Source: Rhizophagus irregularis
Taxonomy: Eukaryota; Glomeromycota; Glomeromycetes; Glomerales; Glomeraceae
Assembly: GCF_026210795.1 (NCBI RefSeq)
Contig: NC_089444.1
Coordinates: 4,268,501-4,332,500, forward strand
Direction: 5' to 3'
Length of the DNA: 64,000 bases
The notes beneath the pieces are model-generated. The model saw only the letters and a list, made by a program, of their open reading frames with translations. It was not told the origin of the DNA and did not search any database. Below, piece after piece: positions 54,483 to 64,000 of this stretch (position 1 is the stretch's first letter; every line of letters begins with the position of its first letter). A program made the translations under genes and the position numbers.

Positions 54483-54584
54483 GGTTAGGAAGAGGAAAAG
54501 TATAGCAATTTGCATTTGAATCGAAGTCACGTGATTTTACGTAAAAAATTATTCCGATAGAAAAATTCTGTTCACATTTCATAT

Positions 54585-55182
54585 TGTAACACCTGAGCCC
54601 ATAGAGAATTATGTTTGCCACCTCAGGTATTAACAAAATGACTCTTTATTAATAATATAAATAAATACAATAATATGCTTGGTTTAATAACATTAAATAA
54701 TAAAATAATTCATAACAAAATTCGTCCCCTTTTCTCTCAAAAGGTGATCTTCACGCCCTTTTATGTTTGTTTTTGTGTACTAAATTCATAATTTCAATTC
54801 ATGGATTTAAATTATTAAAGTATTTCCATTGTTTTAAAGTATTTCCATTATCTTAATTTTGTATCCATTTGATCATCATAAACTCCTGAATTATGATTTA
54901 TAATATTAACGTAGTGATCAACAAATTATTCACTTGACATCTCAGATCACTTGATTTCATTCAATTTAGTATCTTTCGGATCTTCATTTATCCTTAAATC
55001 TCGTGACTAATAGTTTATGGTCATCACGGACCAATCACCTCAATCCATGTGATTATTAGTTTAACGACTTCTCGGTCCAATTAAAATAAAAATAAAAATA
55101 AGTTAAAATTTTATACACTAAGACTAAATATAATACTGCGCCTCACAATTAATAAATTTACTAGATATACTACGGCATTACA
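54585..55182 (-). repeat. 3' LTR of the Gypsy element (598 bp)
   Basis: On the plus strand it starts TGTAACACC and ends GGCATTACA (imperfect TGTAA/TTACA ends). It directly adjoins the polypurine tract. The five bases before it are CATAT, a possible target duplication; the other flank is not visible. Boundaries are inferred from TG..CA and the PPT, without the partner LTR. Confidence 0.7.
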
Positions 55183-55197
55183 ACTATCCCCCGCATA
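55183..55197 (-). other. polypurine tract
   Basis: Minus strand reads ATGCGGGGGATAGT just before the LTR, the usual primer site for plus-strand DNA synthesis. Confidence 0.7.
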
Positions 55198-55519: not shown

Positions 55520-57301
55520 TCATTTACTCATCGGTGTATGGTAAGTCTTTAATAATTCTCCATTTACAGGTATCTTCTTGATGACACCTTTAATATTTTT
55601 AATTCTATAAGCTCCATTCGGTAGTATTTCATGAATGTAAAATGGTCCCAACCATTTTGATTCTAATTTTCCCGATAGTTGTTGTGCTTTGGCTTTATCA
55701 TAGAGTAGTATTTTATCTCCAATTCCAAAGGTGTGTTCTTTGATTATTTTTCTGTCATGATACTCTTTTTGTTTTGTTTGAGATTTCAGTATTTGTTCTT
55801 TGGCTTCATGTCGGATTTTTGGTAGTTCTTCTAATAATCCAACTATTCTATCACTTAGGTTAATTTCTTTGATATTTTCATCCATTATTGTCCGTACATT
55901 TCTTCCGTATGTTAAATAAAATGGTCGAATTCTTGTTGAACTATGCTTTTTATTTCGGTAAGCAAATAATATGGGTGCTATCCTTTGATCCCAATCATCT
56001 TTGGTTGATAATTTTGCTAATGCTTGACCTAATGTTCGGTTGAATCTTTCAACAAGTCCGTTTGTCTCTGGATGATAACTTGTAGAAAAATTCCATTTAA
56101 TTTTGAATTTTTCCATTAATTCCTTAATCATTTCATTATTGAAATGACTTCCTCTATCACTCAATATTTTCATTGGACATCCATGTCTACAAATGATGTC
56201 TTCATAAATAAATTTTGATACTTCTTTGGCAGTTGCTTCTTTTACTGCTTTGGCTTCTGGCCATTTTGTAAAATAATCCATTGCTACTATGATGTATTTA
56301 TTACCATTTGTTGTTGTGTTCAATGGTCCAACAAAGTCAATCCCGATTTGATACCATGGTTCTACTACTTTAATTGGGTGTAATTCATTTTTCCCTTGTG
56401 GTTTTCCTCTTCTTTGACATTCATCACATGTCCTTACATATCTTTCAACATCATTCAGCATATTTTCCCAATAATATTTATCTTTTAAATTATCATAAGT
56501 ACTTTTGATTCCCATATGTGCCGATAATTCATGACTGTGAGCTAAATATAGTGCTCCCATCTTTTCAAAGTCTTCTATTATTCTTATGTTTTTACCATTT
56601 TTCTCAATATGCTTTTTACCATCAGTTACTCTGATGTTATCCTTAATCTCAACATTTTTAACCTCTATTGGTGGTTTATCTCCATCTAATTCTATTACTT
56701 TATTATATACTCTTTCCCAATCTGTGTCATTATTCGATATTTTAATATTAGCATATTTTTCTCCTTCGTAAATATCTTGACATTCTTTAAATGATTTCAC
56801 CATCTCCATATATCTTTCTTCATCTAATAATGGATATGATGTTTTATGTCCTTGATCCTTTTTCGAATGTTCTCTACCTTTGTAATTTTCCCAACATTTT
56901 TCATTTTCTAAAAATATCACTATTGATTCATCAATTATCCTTTTGTTCCTAAATACTTCCTTTTCTAATAGGTGGTTCTCATATCTTGTTATGTATCCTC
57001 TGTCGAATGATGGTGTTTGTTGATAAAAGTACTCACTATAGGGACTTTTATCTAATATTAACCAATCCTCATTATCATGTTCTTCCATTCTCCTGTTGAT
57101 TTGTTTGACAACTTCCTTCCTGAATTCCCATTCTATACCTTTCTTTGGTATTTTATACTTATCATTGTCCTCTCTTCTCCTTTTAAAGGTGTTAAACCTC
57201 ACACTTTGTCCTACTTTTTCAAATTCTTTTATAAGTTTATTTACAATGAATGTTTTTCCAGTACCATCAACTCCACATATGATTATTATTTTAGGTCCCA
57301 T
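55520..57301 (-). CDS. thymidylate-kinase-like domain fused to Gypsy integrase
   Basis: 593 residues from ATG 57301. Residues 1-205 form a P-loop kinase: Walker A GVDGTGKT at 10-17, LILDKSPYSEYFYQQ at 81-95 (the DR-x-x-x-S motif of thymidylate/deoxynucleoside kinases, here DK), and a charged lid-like segment KKDQGHKTSYP at 147-157. After a linker comes the integrase: H257-x4-H262 and C292-x2-C295 zinc site, then the catalytic D322 (IDFVGPL), D382 (SDRGSHF) and E418 (NGLVERFN), with the 35-residue spacing between the last two. A C-terminal GPF-containing segment (WLGPFYIHEILPNGAYRI) follows at about 555-572. The integrase inserts the cDNA. The kinase part could phosphorylate dTMP or another deoxynucleotide for reverse transcription; that is inference. 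The start overlaps the preceding small frame by 11 nt. Confidence 0.88.
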   Translation of the reverse strand: MGPKIIIICGVDGTGKTFIVNKLIKEFEKVGQSVRFNTFKRRREDNDKYKIPKKGIEWEFRKEVVKQINRRMEEHDNEDWLILDKSPYSEYFYQQTPSFDRGYITRYENHLLEKEVFRNKRIIDESIVIFLENEKCWENYKGREHSKKDQGHKTSYPLLDEERYMEMVKSFKECQDIYEGEKYANIKISNNDTDWERVYNKVIELDGDKPPIEVKNVEIKDNIRVTDGKKHIEKNGKNIRIIEDFEKMGALYLAHSHELSAHMGIKSTYDNLKDKYYWENMLNDVERYVRTCDECQRRGKPQGKNELHPIKVVEPWYQIGIDFVGPLNTTTNGNKYIIVAMDYFTKWPEAKAVKEATAKEVSKFIYEDIICRHGCPMKILSDRGSHFNNEMIKELMEKFKIKWNFSTSYHPETNGLVERFNRTLGQALAKLSTKDDWDQRIAPILFAYRNKKHSSTRIRPFYLTYGRNVRTIMDENIKEINLSDRIVGLLEELPKIRHEAKEQILKSQTKQKEYHDRKIIKEHTFGIGDKILLYDKAKAQQLSGKLESKWLGPFYIHEILPNGAYRIKNIKGVIKKIPVNGELLKTYHTPMSK

Positions 57302-57530
57302 TTTTACATAATTCTGATAATTTTAGCTTGTTTACTTTACTTAATATCACCCCTATTTGTAATATTTCCTCTTGAGTTTCCAATATTAATGGTCTTTCTT
57401 CACTATCTTCAAAATTTTTGGCTTTGAATTTATAGTTATAATTTATCCTGTTTAATTCCTTTGTTATACCTTCTAAATTTTCGATTATATCCTTTATTTT
57501 ATGATTTGTATTTCTTACCACTTGTTCCAT
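57291..57530 (-). CDS. small frame between RNase H and kinase-integrase
   Basis: 79 codons, MEQVVRNTNHKIKDIIENLE to KLSELCKNGT. Predicted helical and charged. It starts 37 nt after the RT-RNase H stop and its end overlaps the kinase ATG (AAAATGGGACC..). Unknown function; it may be a linker of the polyprotein read after frameshifting, or a separate small protein. Confidence 0.45.
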   Translation of the reverse strand: MEQVVRNTNHKIKDIIENLEGITKELNRINYNYKFKAKNFEDSEERPLILETQEEILQIGVILSKVNKLKLSELCKNGT

Positions 57531-57566: not shown

Positions 57567-59050
57567 TTATATTATTCTTGATAAGGCATCTGCGTTTTTA
57601 TTTTCTTTTCCTGGTCTATGGGTTATTTCAAAATCATACTGTTCCAATTCCATGACCCATCTTGATCTCTTTCCTTTTGGTACTTTTGCAGTCATTAATC
57701 CCTTCAAAGCTGCATGGTCTGTTACTACCTCAAATTTTCTATTGATCAAGTATTTATGGAAATGTTGTATTCCCCATACAATTGCATAACATTCTTGTTC
57801 GGTTATTGGCCATCTTTGTTCTGTCCTGTTTAAACTTTTACTGGCATATTCTATTACATATTCTTGACCTTTATCATCTTTTTGAGCTAACACTGCCCCT
57901 AATCCTACTCCTGAAGCATCTGTAATTAATATAAATTTCCTTAACCAATCTGGTTGTCTTAACACCGGTTCTTCGGTTAATTTCCTTTTTAATATTTCTA
58001 ATGCTTCATGTTGTTTGATGCCCCATTCAAACTTTTCATCTTTTCTCAATAAAGATGTTATTGGTTTTACTATTTTTGAAAAATCTTTAATAAATTTTCT
58101 ATAATACGTACATAACCCTAATATTGACCTTACACCTTTTATATTTATAGGTGCTGTTAATTTTTGTATCTTTTCAACCTTTCCTGGACTTGGTTTTAAT
58201 CCATTCTTACCAACTACATGTCCTAAAAATTCTATTTCTGTTTTCCCAAATATACATTTCTTTAACTTTAGTATTAAACTGGCTTCCTTTAATTTTTCTA
58301 ACACTAACTTTATGTGTTTTAGGTGGTCTTCGAAATTTTCCGAATATATCATTATATCATCAATGTATACTATCACAAATTCATTTAGGTACTCCTTTAA
58401 TACTTTATCCATTAACCTTTGAAAACTTGCAGGTGCATTTGTTAACCCAAATGGCATGACATTATATTCATATAATCCTGCTGAGCATATGAATGCTGTT
58501 TTCTCAATATCTTCCTCAGCCATTTCTATCTGATTAAACCCTGATGCTAAATCTAGACTGGTAAACCATTTTCCTGAACTTATCCTTTCTAATTGTTCAT
58601 CAATCCTCGGTAATGGATATGCATCTGTTATTGTAACTTTATTTAATTTTCTATAGTCGATGCAAAATCTATAATTTCCTGACTTTTTCCCTGCTAAAGT
58701 CACTGGTGAAGACCATGGACTTCTAGATTCTCTAATTTTTCCCAATTTTAACATCTCGTCAACCTCTTTTCTGATGAATTTACCTTTTTCATCATTTTCT
58801 TTGTACCTCTTTTGGGCTATTGGTTCAGTACCCCCTTTTAATCTGATTTCATGTTTTACTAGGTTTGTCCTATTATATTTTTCACCATCGTACTCAAATA
58901 TATCCTTATATTTTTCTACTAATACTTTTAATTTACCTTTTTGTTCATTGGTTATGTCCCCTACTTTAAATTTTTCAGTAAATTTTTCATGGTCACTTTT
59001 GTGCTTCTTTATCGTCTCTTCAGTATCATTCTGACCAAGACTTATACTTT
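57567..59050 (-). CDS. Gypsy reverse transcriptase and RNase H
   Basis: The frame is open from about 59050, in -1 register to the protease, without an ATG until 58754; synthesis is probably by frameshift from the protease frame. RT motifs: SPWSSPVTLAGKK, FCIDYRKLNKVT, FTSLDLASGFNQI, MPFGLTNAPASFQ, VYIDDIMIYS (catalytic YIDD) and FLGHVV. RNase H: LITDASGVGLGAVL, TEQECYAIVWGI, VVTDHAALKGL, HRPGKENKNADALSR. It copies element RNA into cDNA and removes the RNA. All catalytic Asp residues are present. Confidence 0.95.
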
Positions 59051-59569
59051 AAAATTTTCATCTTCCTGACCTTCATGGTCATCTTCATATATGTTATACA
59101 ATTCATCCTGGTATAATTCTTCTAATATTTCCTCTTCATCAAATGTTTCTTCAAACCCTTTAATGGTCCTTTGTGTGTATTTTACTGGTATATCCATAGT
59201 TTCATCATTCATTCTAATTATTATTGTTTTATCTGTGTAATCTATATTTGCTTTGAACATATCTAATACTCCATTTCCTAACACAATTTCGTTTTTTCCT
59301 GAATCAATTACTTCAACCTTAATGGGTATTTCTTTATCCCCAAATTGTATGTATATTGTCGTGGTACCCCTAGATGCTAATTTATCCTCATTTATCATCA
59401 CACATCTTACTGTACTCGGTTCCTCAATTTTTAGGTCCATTTCATCCATTATCTGACTAGTTATTACATTTACTGCTGCTCCTGTATCAAACATTATGTC
59501 CTTTAATTCTTGGTTTATTATTAATTTACCCCTTAATGCAGTTAAATGTTCTGCTTCAATGTTGTTCAT
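59042..59569 (-). CDS. Gypsy aspartic protease
   Basis: 175 codons from the first ATG. The retropepsin core is KDIMFDTGAAVNVI (catalytic D28-T-G) with a later EIVLGNGVLDMF, matching the hydrophobic-x-G flap/helix pattern. It matures the polyprotein. It is in the same frame as Gag, separated by the Gag TGA and four sense codons, which suggests stop read-through. The C-terminal tail is acidic. Confidence 0.9.
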   Translation of the reverse strand: MNNIEAEHLTALRGKLIINQELKDIMFDTGAAVNVITSQIMDEMDLKIEEPSTVRCVMINEDKLASRGTTTIYIQFGDKEIPIKVEVIDSGKNEIVLGNGVLDMFKANIDYTDKTIIIRMNDETMDIPVKYTQRTIKGFEETFDEEEILEELYQDELYNIYEDDHEGQEDENFKV

Positions 59570-59581
59570 TGATTCTTGTAG

Positions 59582-62500
59582 TCAATCTGTTTGTGGATAC
59601 CTTCTCATTCCTTCATAATATATTTTCCTTTGCTCTGGACTCATGTTTATAATTTGTGAAAAGGTTGCATTTGCTCTGGTATTTTTCAGATCCTCTATTA
59701 TGTTATATTCTGGTATGTTCCTCTGAAATGCGCTTGTCCTATGGATACCTTCAACACGTTCATTTTTACATTGTTTTGCATAGTGACCTCTTTGTCCACA
59801 ATTTCCACATGTATTATTATTTCTCCTTGCTTCTTGTGCTTTCCTCAGACTTTCATCAGTGAATCCTCTTTTTGGTAATGCTGCTGCCCTTTCCTCTTGG
59901 CTTGCATATTTATTATTCCTTCTTCGTGTTTGTTCTTGGTCAATTTCCATATCTACATCTCGATTACTTGACCTATTCTTTATGTTACTTCTCGTTTGTC
60001 TTTCACCAATATAAAAATCTTGATCAACATGGTTAAATGTTACATCATTATCTCGGTAATACGGGTCATCATAACTATATCCTTGGTCATAATTATCCTG
60101 ATAATCCTGACTATCATAATCATATTGGTCATATTGGTCATTATAATTATCATATTCCACTACATTGAATCCTCGATTATTGTTTTGGTGGTTTGGTGGT
60201 CTGTTATAGTTATTTGGTCTTCCATTATAGTTATTTGATCTTCTATTATAATTTTGATTATTTGGTCTTCCATAGTTTCTTTGACCATTATTTACCCTAC
60301 ATTCATTTGCATAATGTCCTGGTTGTTTACAATTATAACATGCTCGAGGTGGTGGTCCTTGTCTATTATTATTGTTTGGTGGTCTCTTTTGCCCTCCAAG
60401 TTGATTTACTAGTTTTACCTCTAATTTTTTAAACATGTCGGCAAGGTCATCCTCATAATTTTTCTCCAATGGTTTTTCAAATATATTCTTTGGTTTGTCA
60501 TCTTGTATATCGATTCCTTTTCTTTGGGTACTAACTGATATACCACGTGTCTTTCTTATTAATTCATTAGTAGCTTCCTCTTCTCTTCTTGCTGTATTCA
60601 CTGCATCATTTAAATTTGCTGGGTTTTGTCTTCTGACTTGATATCCCAATGTTGGTGTTAATCCTTCGATATAATTATCCACTTGTAATTCATCATCTAA
60701 TGCATGGCCTCTGGTAGCTATCCTTAATATTTGTCTAAACCTTATCGTATATGCCTCAACATTTTCATTTACTCCTTGTGTTATTTTCCTTAATTCTAAC
60801 ATTTTCCTTTTTCTAACATCTTCCCTGGTAAATCTTTGTTTAATCCTATGTTTTAAATCATTATCATTATCGTTATCTTGCCAATTTACCAAATGACCAT
60901 TGTTTGCTTCCTTCTTTTCATTATACCATTGTGCTGCTGCACCTTTCAAACAGGTAGCTGCCATTGCTGCTTGTCTAGCTCCATTTACTCCTGCTGCTTT
61001 TCCTATAGCAGTAAATGCTGTTTCAAATTGTCTTACCCAATCGTTTATGTCTTCTTCTTCCCTTCCATAAAATTGTGGCATACTAATTATTCCTCCAGCT
61101 ACATTTCCTGCATCCTCAATTGCATTTGCTAATGGGTTGGCTGCGACTAATCCAGCCCAATTACCTCCTATATCATGTCCCGTTGCTGCTAGTAAAGCCG
61201 CTCTAAAATCTTCCCTTACTTCAGCTCTTGTTGCTCCCATAATTATTGGTACTATTGGTAGAATTGGTGGTATCGGTGGTGTTAAAGGTGTTTCAAATAA
61301 ATTTTCTATATTATAATCAGATATTTCACTTTTATCCTCAGAGTTTGATTCTGAACTTTCACTTGAGTCAAAACCAGGTCTATTTATAATGTTTTCTTCA
61401 TAAGGTTCTTCAAAATTTTCATTGTTATCGGTATCATTTGGATTTAAAATTTCTCCGTCTTTTCCAGATCCATCTGATTTTTCATTATCAGATTCATTTC
61501 CACTACTTTCACTATCCTCAATTCCAGCTTGCTGTTTTAGAAATTTATCTAATATTCGCCTTAAATTTTTCTCCATTTCATTTTTATTTCCTTGGAATAT
61601 TTCAATAAATTCTTGATCCAATATTTCTCCATCAGTATATCCCATACTGATTAACCTCAATAACTCTCCATTAGTTATTCCTATTTTATTATCATCACAT
61701 ATTTGTTTTAATCTTTTAACCCTGATATCAATTTCATTTTCGTCATTTTCACAATCCCTACACTTGGTTTTTCCTTCGTCAAATTTATTGTTTATCCATC
61801 TTATTCCACATTCATTACAAAATGTGGTATTTTCATTTATCCATTCATATAATTTTATCCTTAATTCTTTGTCATTCGTATCAATTTCCTGGAAATATTT
61901 TTCCATAAATTCCATTGTTAATATTATACTATTGCTTATCCTGAATTTTCTCATCCTTTCTATTTCTGACACATTTAATTCGTATCCTAATTTTTCTAAG
62001 TCATCCTTTAATTCTAATAATTCTTTTTGTTCACAATTTTTACATTGTCCAATGTCTGCTATCATATCAGGTAACTTTCTATTTCTACAATTTCCACATC
62101 TCAATGTTTCTTTTGTTAACCATTCATTTATTTCATCTTTTAATTTTTCATCACTTAGTCTCATTAATTCGAAAAATGTACCTAAAAAGTCTTCTGTTAA
62201 TATCAATTCTATCCTTATCCTTAGGTCCCACATTCTTTGTATATCCTTGTCAGTGAACCTTCCACCCATTTCTTCAATTTTTCTTTTTAATGATTCCACT
62301 GTCCATTCGACATCATCCTCTATTTTTATTTCATAATGTATACTACCATCACTGTCCTCTAATTCATAACTTTCAGGACTATCACTTTCTGGGTCCTCAG
62401 GTTCCCTTGTAAATTGTTTGGTATCAATAAATCTTTGTCTTACTTTTGATACATATCTTATCCATGCATCACCTCCTTCTTGCGTGTCTGTCTCACATCT

Positions 62501-63148
62501 ATTCTGATATTCTATCTGGAGTAATAATTCAATTACCTCTTCTTTCCTCAACAGATCTTCTGTTTCTTCATATAATAGATCCCTGAATAACTTCATTGCT
62601 AACTTCTTAACATGTATTGCTTTCATTTCATTTTCCAATATCGTGTTATACCAATCCCAAAATTTTTGAAATCTATTTTCAACATCCCAATCTTCTAAAA
62701 TGTATCCATGTTTCATTATTTCTGGACATCCTATTAATCGATCAAATACTTCATTTTCCAAGTTTCCTTCAATACAATCCCTTACAATTACTACAATTAT
62801 TATTCTCAATCCTTTTTCCTTCATTTTTGGTTGTTGTCTGTACCTTATTGATTCAATTATTCTATCTACTATATTCCTACATTTTCCCTTATGTATTGTA
62901 TCCTCCCTTTCTCTATTGTCCATACTTAATAAATTCAATAATTCTTTATGTGTTACATTATTGTACATTAGTATTGTATCCTCAAATTTAAATAAAGCAT
63001 CCCAAAATTTCTTGAATGCTGCTGATACTTCTCTTTCTATTGGATTACATATTTCACATGCTAAACATTCCTCTGGTTCTATCACTCCTAGGTCATGTTC
63101 TTGTTTATGGTTTATATATTCAGCGTTCCAAACATGGTACCATTCCAT
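59582..63148 (-). CDS. Gypsy Gag, long form with extra N-terminal zinc modules
   Basis: 1188 residues from ATG 63148. Residues 1-590 are an extension rich in charged helices with Cys pairs (CLACEIC, CGNC..CKNC, CNEC..CRDC), in which a ~95-residue unit ending in a Cys-ribbon is repeated. A low-complexity acidic stretch is followed by the retrotransposon gag domain at about 700-880 (AAQWYNEKK, VEAYTIRFRQIL, NYIEGL). The tail is Asn/Tyr/Gln-rich with two CCHC knuckles, CYNCKQPGHYANEC and CGNCGQRGHYAKQC. Gag packages the RNA. The length is about two to three times that of usual fungal Gags. The stop TGA is followed by CTA. Confidence 0.9.
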   Translation of the reverse strand: MEWYHVWNAEYINHKQEHDLGVIEPEECLACEICNPIEREVSAAFKKFWDALFKFEDTILMYNNVTHKELLNLLSMDNREREDTIHKGKCRNIVDRIIESIRYRQQPKMKEKGLRIIIVVIVRDCIEGNLENEVFDRLIGCPEIMKHGYILEDWDVENRFQKFWDWYNTILENEMKAIHVKKLAMKLFRDLLYEETEDLLRKEEVIELLLQIEYQNRCETDTQEGGDAWIRYVSKVRQRFIDTKQFTREPEDPESDSPESYELEDSDGSIHYEIKIEDDVEWTVESLKRKIEEMGGRFTDKDIQRMWDLRIRIELILTEDFLGTFFELMRLSDEKLKDEINEWLTKETLRCGNCRNRKLPDMIADIGQCKNCEQKELLELKDDLEKLGYELNVSEIERMRKFRISNSIILTMEFMEKYFQEIDTNDKELRIKLYEWINENTTFCNECGIRWINNKFDEGKTKCRDCENDENEIDIRVKRLKQICDDNKIGITNGELLRLISMGYTDGEILDQEFIEIFQGNKNEMEKNLRRILDKFLKQQAGIEDSESSGNESDNEKSDGSGKDGEILNPNDTDNNENFEEPYEENIINRPGFDSSESSESNSEDKSEISDYNIENLFETPLTPPIPPILPIVPIIMGATRAEVREDFRAALLAATGHDIGGNWAGLVAANPLANAIEDAGNVAGGIISMPQFYGREEEDINDWVRQFETAFTAIGKAAGVNGARQAAMAATCLKGAAAQWYNEKKEANNGHLVNWQDNDNDNDLKHRIKQRFTREDVRKRKMLELRKITQGVNENVEAYTIRFRQILRIATRGHALDDELQVDNYIEGLTPTLGYQVRRQNPANLNDAVNTARREEEATNELIRKTRGISVSTQRKGIDIQDDKPKNIFEKPLEKNYEDDLADMFKKLEVKLVNQLGGQKRPPNNNNRQGPPPRACYNCKQPGHYANECRVNNGQRNYGRPNNQNYNRRSNNYNGRPNNYNRPPNHQNNNRGFNVVEYDNYNDQYDQYDYDSQDYQDNYDQGYSYDDPYYRDNDVTFNHVDQDFYIGERQTRSNIKNRSSNRDVDMEIDQEQTRRRNNKYASQEERAAALPKRGFTDESLRKAQEARRNNNTCGNCGQRGHYAKQCKNERVEGIHRTSAFQRNIPEYNIIEDLKNTRANATFSQIINMSPEQRKIYYEGMRRYPQTD

Positions 63149-64000
63149 TTTTAATAAAATTCTCTAAAAATTTTCGCGTCTTTTACTTTTTATCCTTCTT
63201 TTATATTTTATTTGACCTATACTGGGCTTGCCTTTACCTCATTTGTTCATTACTGAGTATGGTAGTTTACAGGTTTGTACAAATAAATTTATATTCCATA
63301 AAATTTTCCAACCTAAGGTTGAAGTGTGAATCCATATTTGATTTGTCCGATTATTTGTTGTATTTCCAAGACTGATGTATCTTTCCTCGGTGTCAACAAT
63401 TCATTTAATAAGTGGGAGATTCAAATCTCCCTCTTTCATATGCTCCTACTACGCCTCTAATTCTATTATATCCTAAAATTTACTGTGCTTTGATAATCTT
63501 TAATTAATAATCTCGACACCTGTATTGACATTTTATATAATTTTACTACGCTACAAAATCTCTTATCATTTATATCCTTATTAATTTTTAATAACTTTCC
63601 TTGAATATATTTGTCCAGCAAACATTATTTTAATTTTTGTTAACGTTAATCATGATTCTTCTTGGGTACCCTCACACAGAATTGTTTTTGGAAGTTCACA
63701 CAGAACTATTCTCAATTGATCACACAGAATACCTCAATTGAGTTCACACAGAAAAAGCTCACACAGAACTATTCTCAATTGATCACACAGAAAACCTCAA
63801 TTGAGTTCACACAGAATTACCCTACCATCGTATTTATAGTGTCGGTTTTTGGGTACACTTTTTATCCTTAACTTAACCTCAATTATTTATAAAAATTATT
63901 TTTAATCCTTAATTCATGGAACTTATTTACAATTTTCTATTAAAACCCCTTCTAACTTGATTAGCCTCGCTTTTCCCTTGATAATCAATTACTACCATAC
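63149..64000 (-). other. 5' leader of the Gypsy element
   Basis: No gene. At 63670-63820 a ~64-bp unit with ACACAGAACTATTCTCAATT and CCTCAATTGAGTTCACACAG is present twice; the short word CACACAGAA occurs six or more times. Primer-binding site not identified, as the LTR edge is outside the window. Confidence 0.6.

Follow-up and report, generated by a model that had tools for sequence, protein, structure and literature searches.

Retroelements are thought to rely on the deoxynucleoside triphosphate (dNTP) pools of their hosts. To our knowledge, dUTPases are the known exception to this dependence, and they merely keep dUTP low. In non-primate lentiviruses the dUTPase is located between RNase H and integrase; fold and reaction of retroviral dUTPases are unrelated to those of kinases of the thymidylate kinase (Tmk) family. 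Parts of two papers describe dUTPase-bearing Ty3/gypsy elements, namely PosPlaTy3 from basidiomycetes and Juno, Vesta and TelKA from bdelloid rotifers (PMC2864245, PMC5408684). Here, we analyzed a stretch of 64,000 nucleotides from Rhizophagus irregularis (assembly GCF_026210795.1, contig NC_089444.1, positions 4,268,501 to 4,332,500), referred to as the window, which carries a Ty3/gypsy retrotransposon with a kinase domain in its Pol. A preliminary description of this locus had noted that retroelements with dUTPase are known, in agreement with parts of the literature on fungal and rotifer Ty3/gypsy elements and on retroviruses (PMC2864245, PMC5408684, PMC6431247, PMC4531489); as far as these sources go, such elements do take up enzymes of nucleotide metabolism, whose position within Pol varies. 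Judged by titles and the beginnings of abstracts, the open-access literature contained no report of a retrotransposon with a thymidylate or other nucleotide kinase; such an element may have been described elsewhere, for instance in a repeat database. In the part of the Rhizophagus transposon paper PMC8647823 that was considered, the kinases named belong to expanded host gene families.

On balance, we favor the reading that the element represents a Ty3/gypsy lineage with a captured Tmk-family domain as fourth Pol enzyme, probably a working (deoxy)nucleoside-monophosphate kinase which supplies dNTP in the particle.

The kinase-integrase frame and the family of its N-terminal domain

A single open reading frame (ORF) joining a thymidylate-kinase-like domain to a Ty3/gypsy integrase had been proposed for positions 55520-57301 of the window. 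This ORF exists; it is located on the minus strand, which had been left unstated, and extends from an ATG at 57301 to 55520, comprising 593 amino acids from the ATG and 600 codons from stop to stop. It is real and not a chance frame, because the same arrangement recurs in 30 full-length copies and the kinase domain recurs in diverged subfamilies. Residues 1-207 (56681-57301) form the thymidylate-kinase-like P-loop domain. All motifs named before were present in the translation: the P-loop GVDGTGKT (residues 10-17, 57251-57274), DKSPYSEYFYQ (residues 84-94, 57020-57052), which aligns with the DR motif of Tmk, and a basic lid-like stretch. The integrase consists of an H2C2 zinc-binding domain (residues 251-299, 56405-56551; Pfam Integrase_H2C2, 63.9 bits), the catalytic core rve (residues 318-411, 56069-56350; 42.3 bits) and a GPY/F module. 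Both Pfam cut-offs were exceeded, and the catalytic D within SDRG is separated by 35 residues, counted by hand, from the E within NGLVERF, as expected for the zinc-finger/D,D-35-E integrase that had been described. The integrase modules and the domain order Gag-protease-reverse transcriptase (RT)-RNase H-integrase are those of a Ty3/gypsy element.

A PHROGs profile search assigned residues 3-195 to the thymidylate kinase family phrog_761 (E 2.7e-13, 51.3 bits), a match over the full domain; the runner-up, also a thymidylate kinase family, reached 21.9 bits and guanylate kinase 14.4 bits. The same family was matched by all 21 aligned kinase copies (best E 3.2e-15) and, as a control, by E. coli Tmk with 132 bits, so Tmk itself belongs to it. 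With a profile built from 72 phage relatives, scores were 24.7 bits for the window domain, 16.9 for E. coli Tmk and 9.0 for a phage guanylate kinase; a profile-profile comparison gave a probability of 97.8%, spanning 85 columns only. PDB searches by sequence returned P-loop pieces of various families only. Close relatives were not found in viral_contigs, also when a phage kinase was used as query, or in genome_contigs, neither of which is a fungal collection; at E 1 there were matches in 1,230 plasmid records, and among the 20 listed only the integrase part aligned.

Motifs were compared in an alignment of 21 kinase copies chosen by their P-loop pattern. Subfamily A is that of the window element, and other loci carry L-numbers; from the 22 loci of other subfamilies the alignment omits L065, which has an internal stop, and L070, whose P-loop is mutated. 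Invariant or nearly invariant were Gly, Asp and Lys of the P-loop, the motifs FN..KRR, EW.FR..VV..IN, KSPY and SF.R, and the lid FLE..CW.NY..RE. The dTMP kinase pattern GxDGxGK[ST] occurred in 21 of 21 rows, an invariance that is partly due to the choice of rows by this very pattern. Without such selection, the P-loop was kept in 27 of 28 subfamily-A copies and in 21 of the 22 others, including L065 with its stop elsewhere; five further subfamily-A copies of the 28 deviated in one of four other motifs. Structure prediction, proposed earlier as a check, gave a fold resembling dTMP kinases for the N-terminal domain, and 50 listed structural matches of the predicted fold were dTMP kinases.

Several results weigh against the favored reading. 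The window copy missed the cut-offs of Pfam Thymidylate_kin (PF02223; 21.3 of 27 bits) and NCBIfam dTMP_kinase (TIGR00041; 23.6 of 83.25 bits); the only curated Pfam cut-off reached by its domain was that of the generic P-loop model AAA_28 (27.3 of 27 bits). At E 0.01, AAA_14 matched 21 of 21 copies, Thymidylate_kin 20 and AAA_28 seven; Pfam separates Tmk poorly from generic P-loop models. In a genome-wide PF02223 search, two stretches of the kinase family exceeded 27 bits (C6:4454486 with 27.7, and C16:4182955 with 28.4 together with its neighbors; C-labels denote contigs of the assembly), the other listed copies scoring below. A tblastn search of phages yielded weak matches in 43 records (E 0.2-7), with names ranging from thymidylate and guanylate kinase to FtsY. 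P-loop mutants exist, namely L041 and L070, and the arginine of the Tmk DR motif was replaced by Lys in 21 of 21 copies (DKSPY or NKSPY). Furthermore, the top two Foldseek matches were deoxynucleoside kinases, query-normalized TM-scores were only 0.36-0.55, and the fold model had been steered by 41 phage Tmk relatives; AlphaFold produced no model from the whole ORF as a single sequence (pLDDT 33). Nevertheless, the profile searches agree with the family proposed in the preliminary description, and the unrelated P-loop family that it had named as the contrary outcome did not emerge. Membership of the N-terminal domain in the Tmk family is thus supported by sequence comparison.

The Lys found in place of Arg in the DR motif is one reason to name dTMP only tentatively as the substrate. 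Instead, the domain may be a kinase from this P-loop superfamily that acts on a deoxynucleoside (salvage), on dGMP or dCMP, or on a nucleic-acid end, as would fit the DK motif, the window copy's scores below the curated Tmk cut-offs and the deoxynucleoside kinases heading the Foldseek matches. We regard such another substrate as rather unlikely, since thymidylate kinase was by far the best profile, the listed fold matches were dTMP kinases, and the GxDGxGK P-loop is of the Tmk type.

Recurrence, selection and exchange of the kinase domain

Genome searches covered one assembly of 146.7 Mb in 32 contigs, with a G+C content of 29%. The whole 593-residue protein was found in 30 full-length copies, 22 of them free of stops and eight with one TGA; 29 were 96-100% identical to the window protein and one 91%. 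The kinase domain alone gave at least 151 matches including partial ones, with identities from 100% down to 35%, a lower bound as 150 of 175 candidates were scored. Other kinase groups were about 55-61% identical, many within open frames of 704-708 or 777-779 codons. A one-off fusion, the second outcome that would have spoken against the preliminary description, is ruled out by the full-length copies and by recurrence in diverged subfamilies. That assembly or annotation had joined a host kinase gene to a transposon is practically negligible as an explanation: no point supports it, the 30 copies lie at different places, the LTR (long terminal repeat) pair is intact, and the host Tmk is a different gene.

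This host Tmk gene on C13 looks normal, and its matches are spread over several exons. It is separate from the element's kinase and little alike, so the kinase is not a recent copy of it; an ancient host origin of the domain is possible. A second thymidylate-kinase-like host gene, L047 (G000:C24:3288271-3288729), has a degenerate P-loop.

The proposed fusion of the kinase to the integrase holds for the subfamily of the window element and not for the other kinase-bearing elements examined. In six of six elements examined from other subfamilies (L080, L081, L163, L164, L165, L051), the RNase H ORF carries the kinase as its C-terminal part, and a separate ORF encodes the integrase. This kinase-bearing ORF also contains the RT in L080, L081 and L163; the RT part is interrupted in L164 and L165, and is covered only in part in L051. 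Apparently, the kinase is a Pol module rather than a part of the integrase as such, and the ORF boundary is shifted in the window's subfamily. A separate integrase ORF was also found in five of five kinase-free Ty3 elements (L166-L170) and is therefore not tied to the kinase; this arrangement is shared by each of the eleven Ty3 elements examined from beyond the subfamily of the window (L080, L081, L163-L170, L051). In L166 and L167, from another Ty3 lineage, a Cys-rich insert of about 300 residues occupies the same Pol position as the kinase.

A further point against the favored reading is that Ty3 lineages without the kinase domain exist in the same genome. Genome-wide, 150 matches to RNase H were scored. 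Judged from coordinates, the best 61 fall into other Ty3 lineages for which no kinase was listed, and no P-loop pattern was present between RNase H and integrase in five elements taken from these 61. For the window RT, scores were obtained at 87 places, each with an identity of at least 61%. Three of them (C13:673416, C4:2355483, C25:3505491) had no kinase match directly downstream; the first two are broken copies of the window's own subfamily.

For subfamily A, selection was analyzed in 28 of the 30 loci (L033 and L046, with a match one codon shorter, were left out). The 28 kinase copies had a pooled ratio of nonsynonymous to synonymous variation (pN/pS) of 0.124; 43 of the codon variants were synonymous and 30 nonsynonymous, and none was a stop. 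Among other subfamilies, the listed pairs with dS > 0.1 (pS up to 0.45) had dN/dS values of 0.06-0.20, and the three closest pairs, with very few changes, 0.28-0.42; the window copy is near saturation against other subfamilies, with dN/dS 0.11-0.24 where computable. On the contrary side, the eight copies analyzed at full length, with few changes, gave a higher pN/pS for the kinase (0.33; five synonymous, seven nonsynonymous) than for the integrase (0.13; 12 synonymous, six nonsynonymous, one stop). By these ratios the kinase domain is evidently kept by purifying selection through many rounds of transposition, and the earlier statement that the frame has been kept was confirmed by the subfamily-A value and by dN/dS mostly near 0.1 among other copies. 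This selection rules out a decaying passenger. Kinase-free Ty3 lineages are common in this genome, as would be expected if the domain had been captured by accident and had no function; such a capture is very improbable, being contradicted by the dN/dS values and by the spread over diverged subfamilies.

In-frame TGA codons recur in integrase copies at residue 497 (L018, L020, L023, L038, L039) and at residue 459 (L040, L045). Recoding of TGA at these residues was considered and rejected; the pattern looks like CpG decay, and the window copy has CGA at 497.

Between L163 and L165, segments compared from residue 151 to 566 of the L163 ORF were 97-100% identical, ending just before the kinase, where identity dropped to 40-76%; the first 46 integrase residues were 70-75% and the remainder 87-100% identical. 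L163 and L081 share 87% identity in the kinase, compared with 68% in the RT and 61% in the integrase; the kinases of L067-L069 are also of the L163 type. These alignments show one cassette-like exchange of the kinase between subfamilies, in which either L163 or L165 may have received the foreign kinase. Breakpoints at the domain edges are as expected for a self-contained cassette.

This exchange also bears on the alternative that catalysis has been lost and the domain acts as an NTP-binding or structural regulator of RT, integrase or particle assembly. The change of the DR arginine to Lys and the changing partner, integrase in one subfamily and RNase H in others, are in its favor. We consider a regulator improbable, because P-loop and lid residues are kept at dN/dS near 0.1 and a partner-specific part is unlikely to swap between elements as far apart as L163 and L081.

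Layout of the element

The element is about 10.4 kb long. Its 3' LTR of 600 bp (54584-55183, minus strand) is 100% identical to the partner copy beyond the window (G000:C16:4332909-4333508); the element is very young and was recently inserted. TG..CA sits one base inside each LTR end. If the ends are placed there, the element is bordered on both sides by a direct repeat of 4 bp, ATAT, read by eye. An LTR pair with a short target-site duplication is typical of Ty3/gypsy elements, the 4-bp AT-only repeat being weak on its own.

All ORFs of the element are located on the minus strand. The Gag ORF (59582-63163, ATG at 63148) contains Retrotrans_gag (residues 729-831) and two CCHC knuckles; the approximately 700 residues ahead of Retrotrans_gag (ORF 59582-63148) had no significant Pfam match. 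The gag UGA stop (59582-59584) is followed by CUAC, and the protease continues in the same frame. This UGA-CUAC (59578-59584) is identical in L080 and L081 (at 485 and 1058 of their reverse complements), and thus present in three of three elements examined. UGA-CUAC is a context type known for stop-codon readthrough, and the gag UGA of this fungal Ty3 lineage is a candidate readthrough site.

The aspartic protease ORF (59042-59581; Pfam gag-asp_proteas, 31.7 bits) and the RT-RNase H ORF of 493 codons (57567-59048; RVT_1 143.8 bits, RT_RNaseH 125 bits) share seven bases at 59042-59048, AATTTTAAA; the stretch is also present in L081, and is replaced by a gap in L080. The overlap was considered as a -1 slippery site, a reading that finds little support, as the frames fit poorly and L080 has the gap there. 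A small ORF of 79 amino acids (57291-57530) lies between RNase H and the kinase ATG. It had 32 genome matches, by coordinates all within the window's subfamily, was open in 21 of 28 copies examined (pN/pS 0.29), and was deleted or shortened in some copies whose kinase ATG remains. An intron between RNase H and kinase is likewise not supported, since copies without this ORF show by eye no clean intron edges.

When the proteins of the element were compared with Pfam at E 1, no dUTPase was found, in a scan that left out 58755-59048 ahead of the RT start codon. Neither a tRNA nor an Rfam family reaching its gathering score was found in the window.

Proposed function and comparison with known systems

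We infer kinase activity, packaging together with RT and, as a first guess, dTMP as substrate. Located between RNase H and integrase as the fourth enzymatic Pol module, the kinase would be cut from Pol, or carried along with it, into the particle beside RT, where it may phosphorylate a deoxynucleotide. Where cellular dNTP pools are low, it would raise local dTTP, or another dNTP precursor, while reverse transcription proceeds. Roles of this kind have been suggested for dUTPases in retroviruses and in the LTR elements of fungi. The preliminary description had offered two hypotheses, raising the dTTP pool and regulating integration, and both may still be entertained as such. Given the fusion to integrase, a function in integration is conceivable; yet the fusion to RNase H elsewhere argues against this as the common function.

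A kinase-like domain that is kept and swapped suggests that the elements may contribute to producing the nucleotides from which their DNA is built. In its full form, this proposal, that they encode their own deoxynucleotide kinase, use it in the particle for the last precursors of dTTP or another dNTP, and trade the cassette between subfamilies, is plausible and offered tentatively. A conserved, selected and exchanged Pol kinase would signal that supply of dNTP precursors limits retrotransposition in this host. If so, nucleotide supply would be an evolvable and traded trait of retroelements. The system offers a testable handle, in that the domain is small and has numerous natural variants, and Ty3 lineages of the same genome that lack the kinase can serve as controls.

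Thymidylate kinases from phages and bacteria (phrog_761, E. coli Tmk) belong to the same family by profile and have a similar fold, as predicted. In contrast to the window domain, they are free-standing and carry the DR motif; identity to it was 13-25% in one comparison and 20-30% in another. Three phage family members examined adjoin, or lie one gene from, a dUTPase or ribonucleotide reductase gene.

As in the dUTPase-bearing Ty3/gypsy elements, to the extent that these are covered by the sources named above, a nucleotide-metabolism enzyme has been taken into Pol, its place varying by family. Their dUTPase removes dUTP and is found between protease and RT or at either terminus of Pol; in the present lineage, a Tmk-family P-loop kinase is located between RNase H and integrase. 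In idea, the proposed role also resembles that of retroviral dUTPases, which, according to part of PMC4531489, favor dTTP over dUTP in reverse transcription, above all in non-dividing cells. Finally, bdelloid LTR elements with a captured ORF3 encoding a GDSL esterase or a DEDDy exonuclease, described in part of PMC5408684, resemble the present lineage in having a captured enzyme that is shared between retroelement types; their ORF3 is a separate ORF, whereas the kinase described here is a module of Pol.
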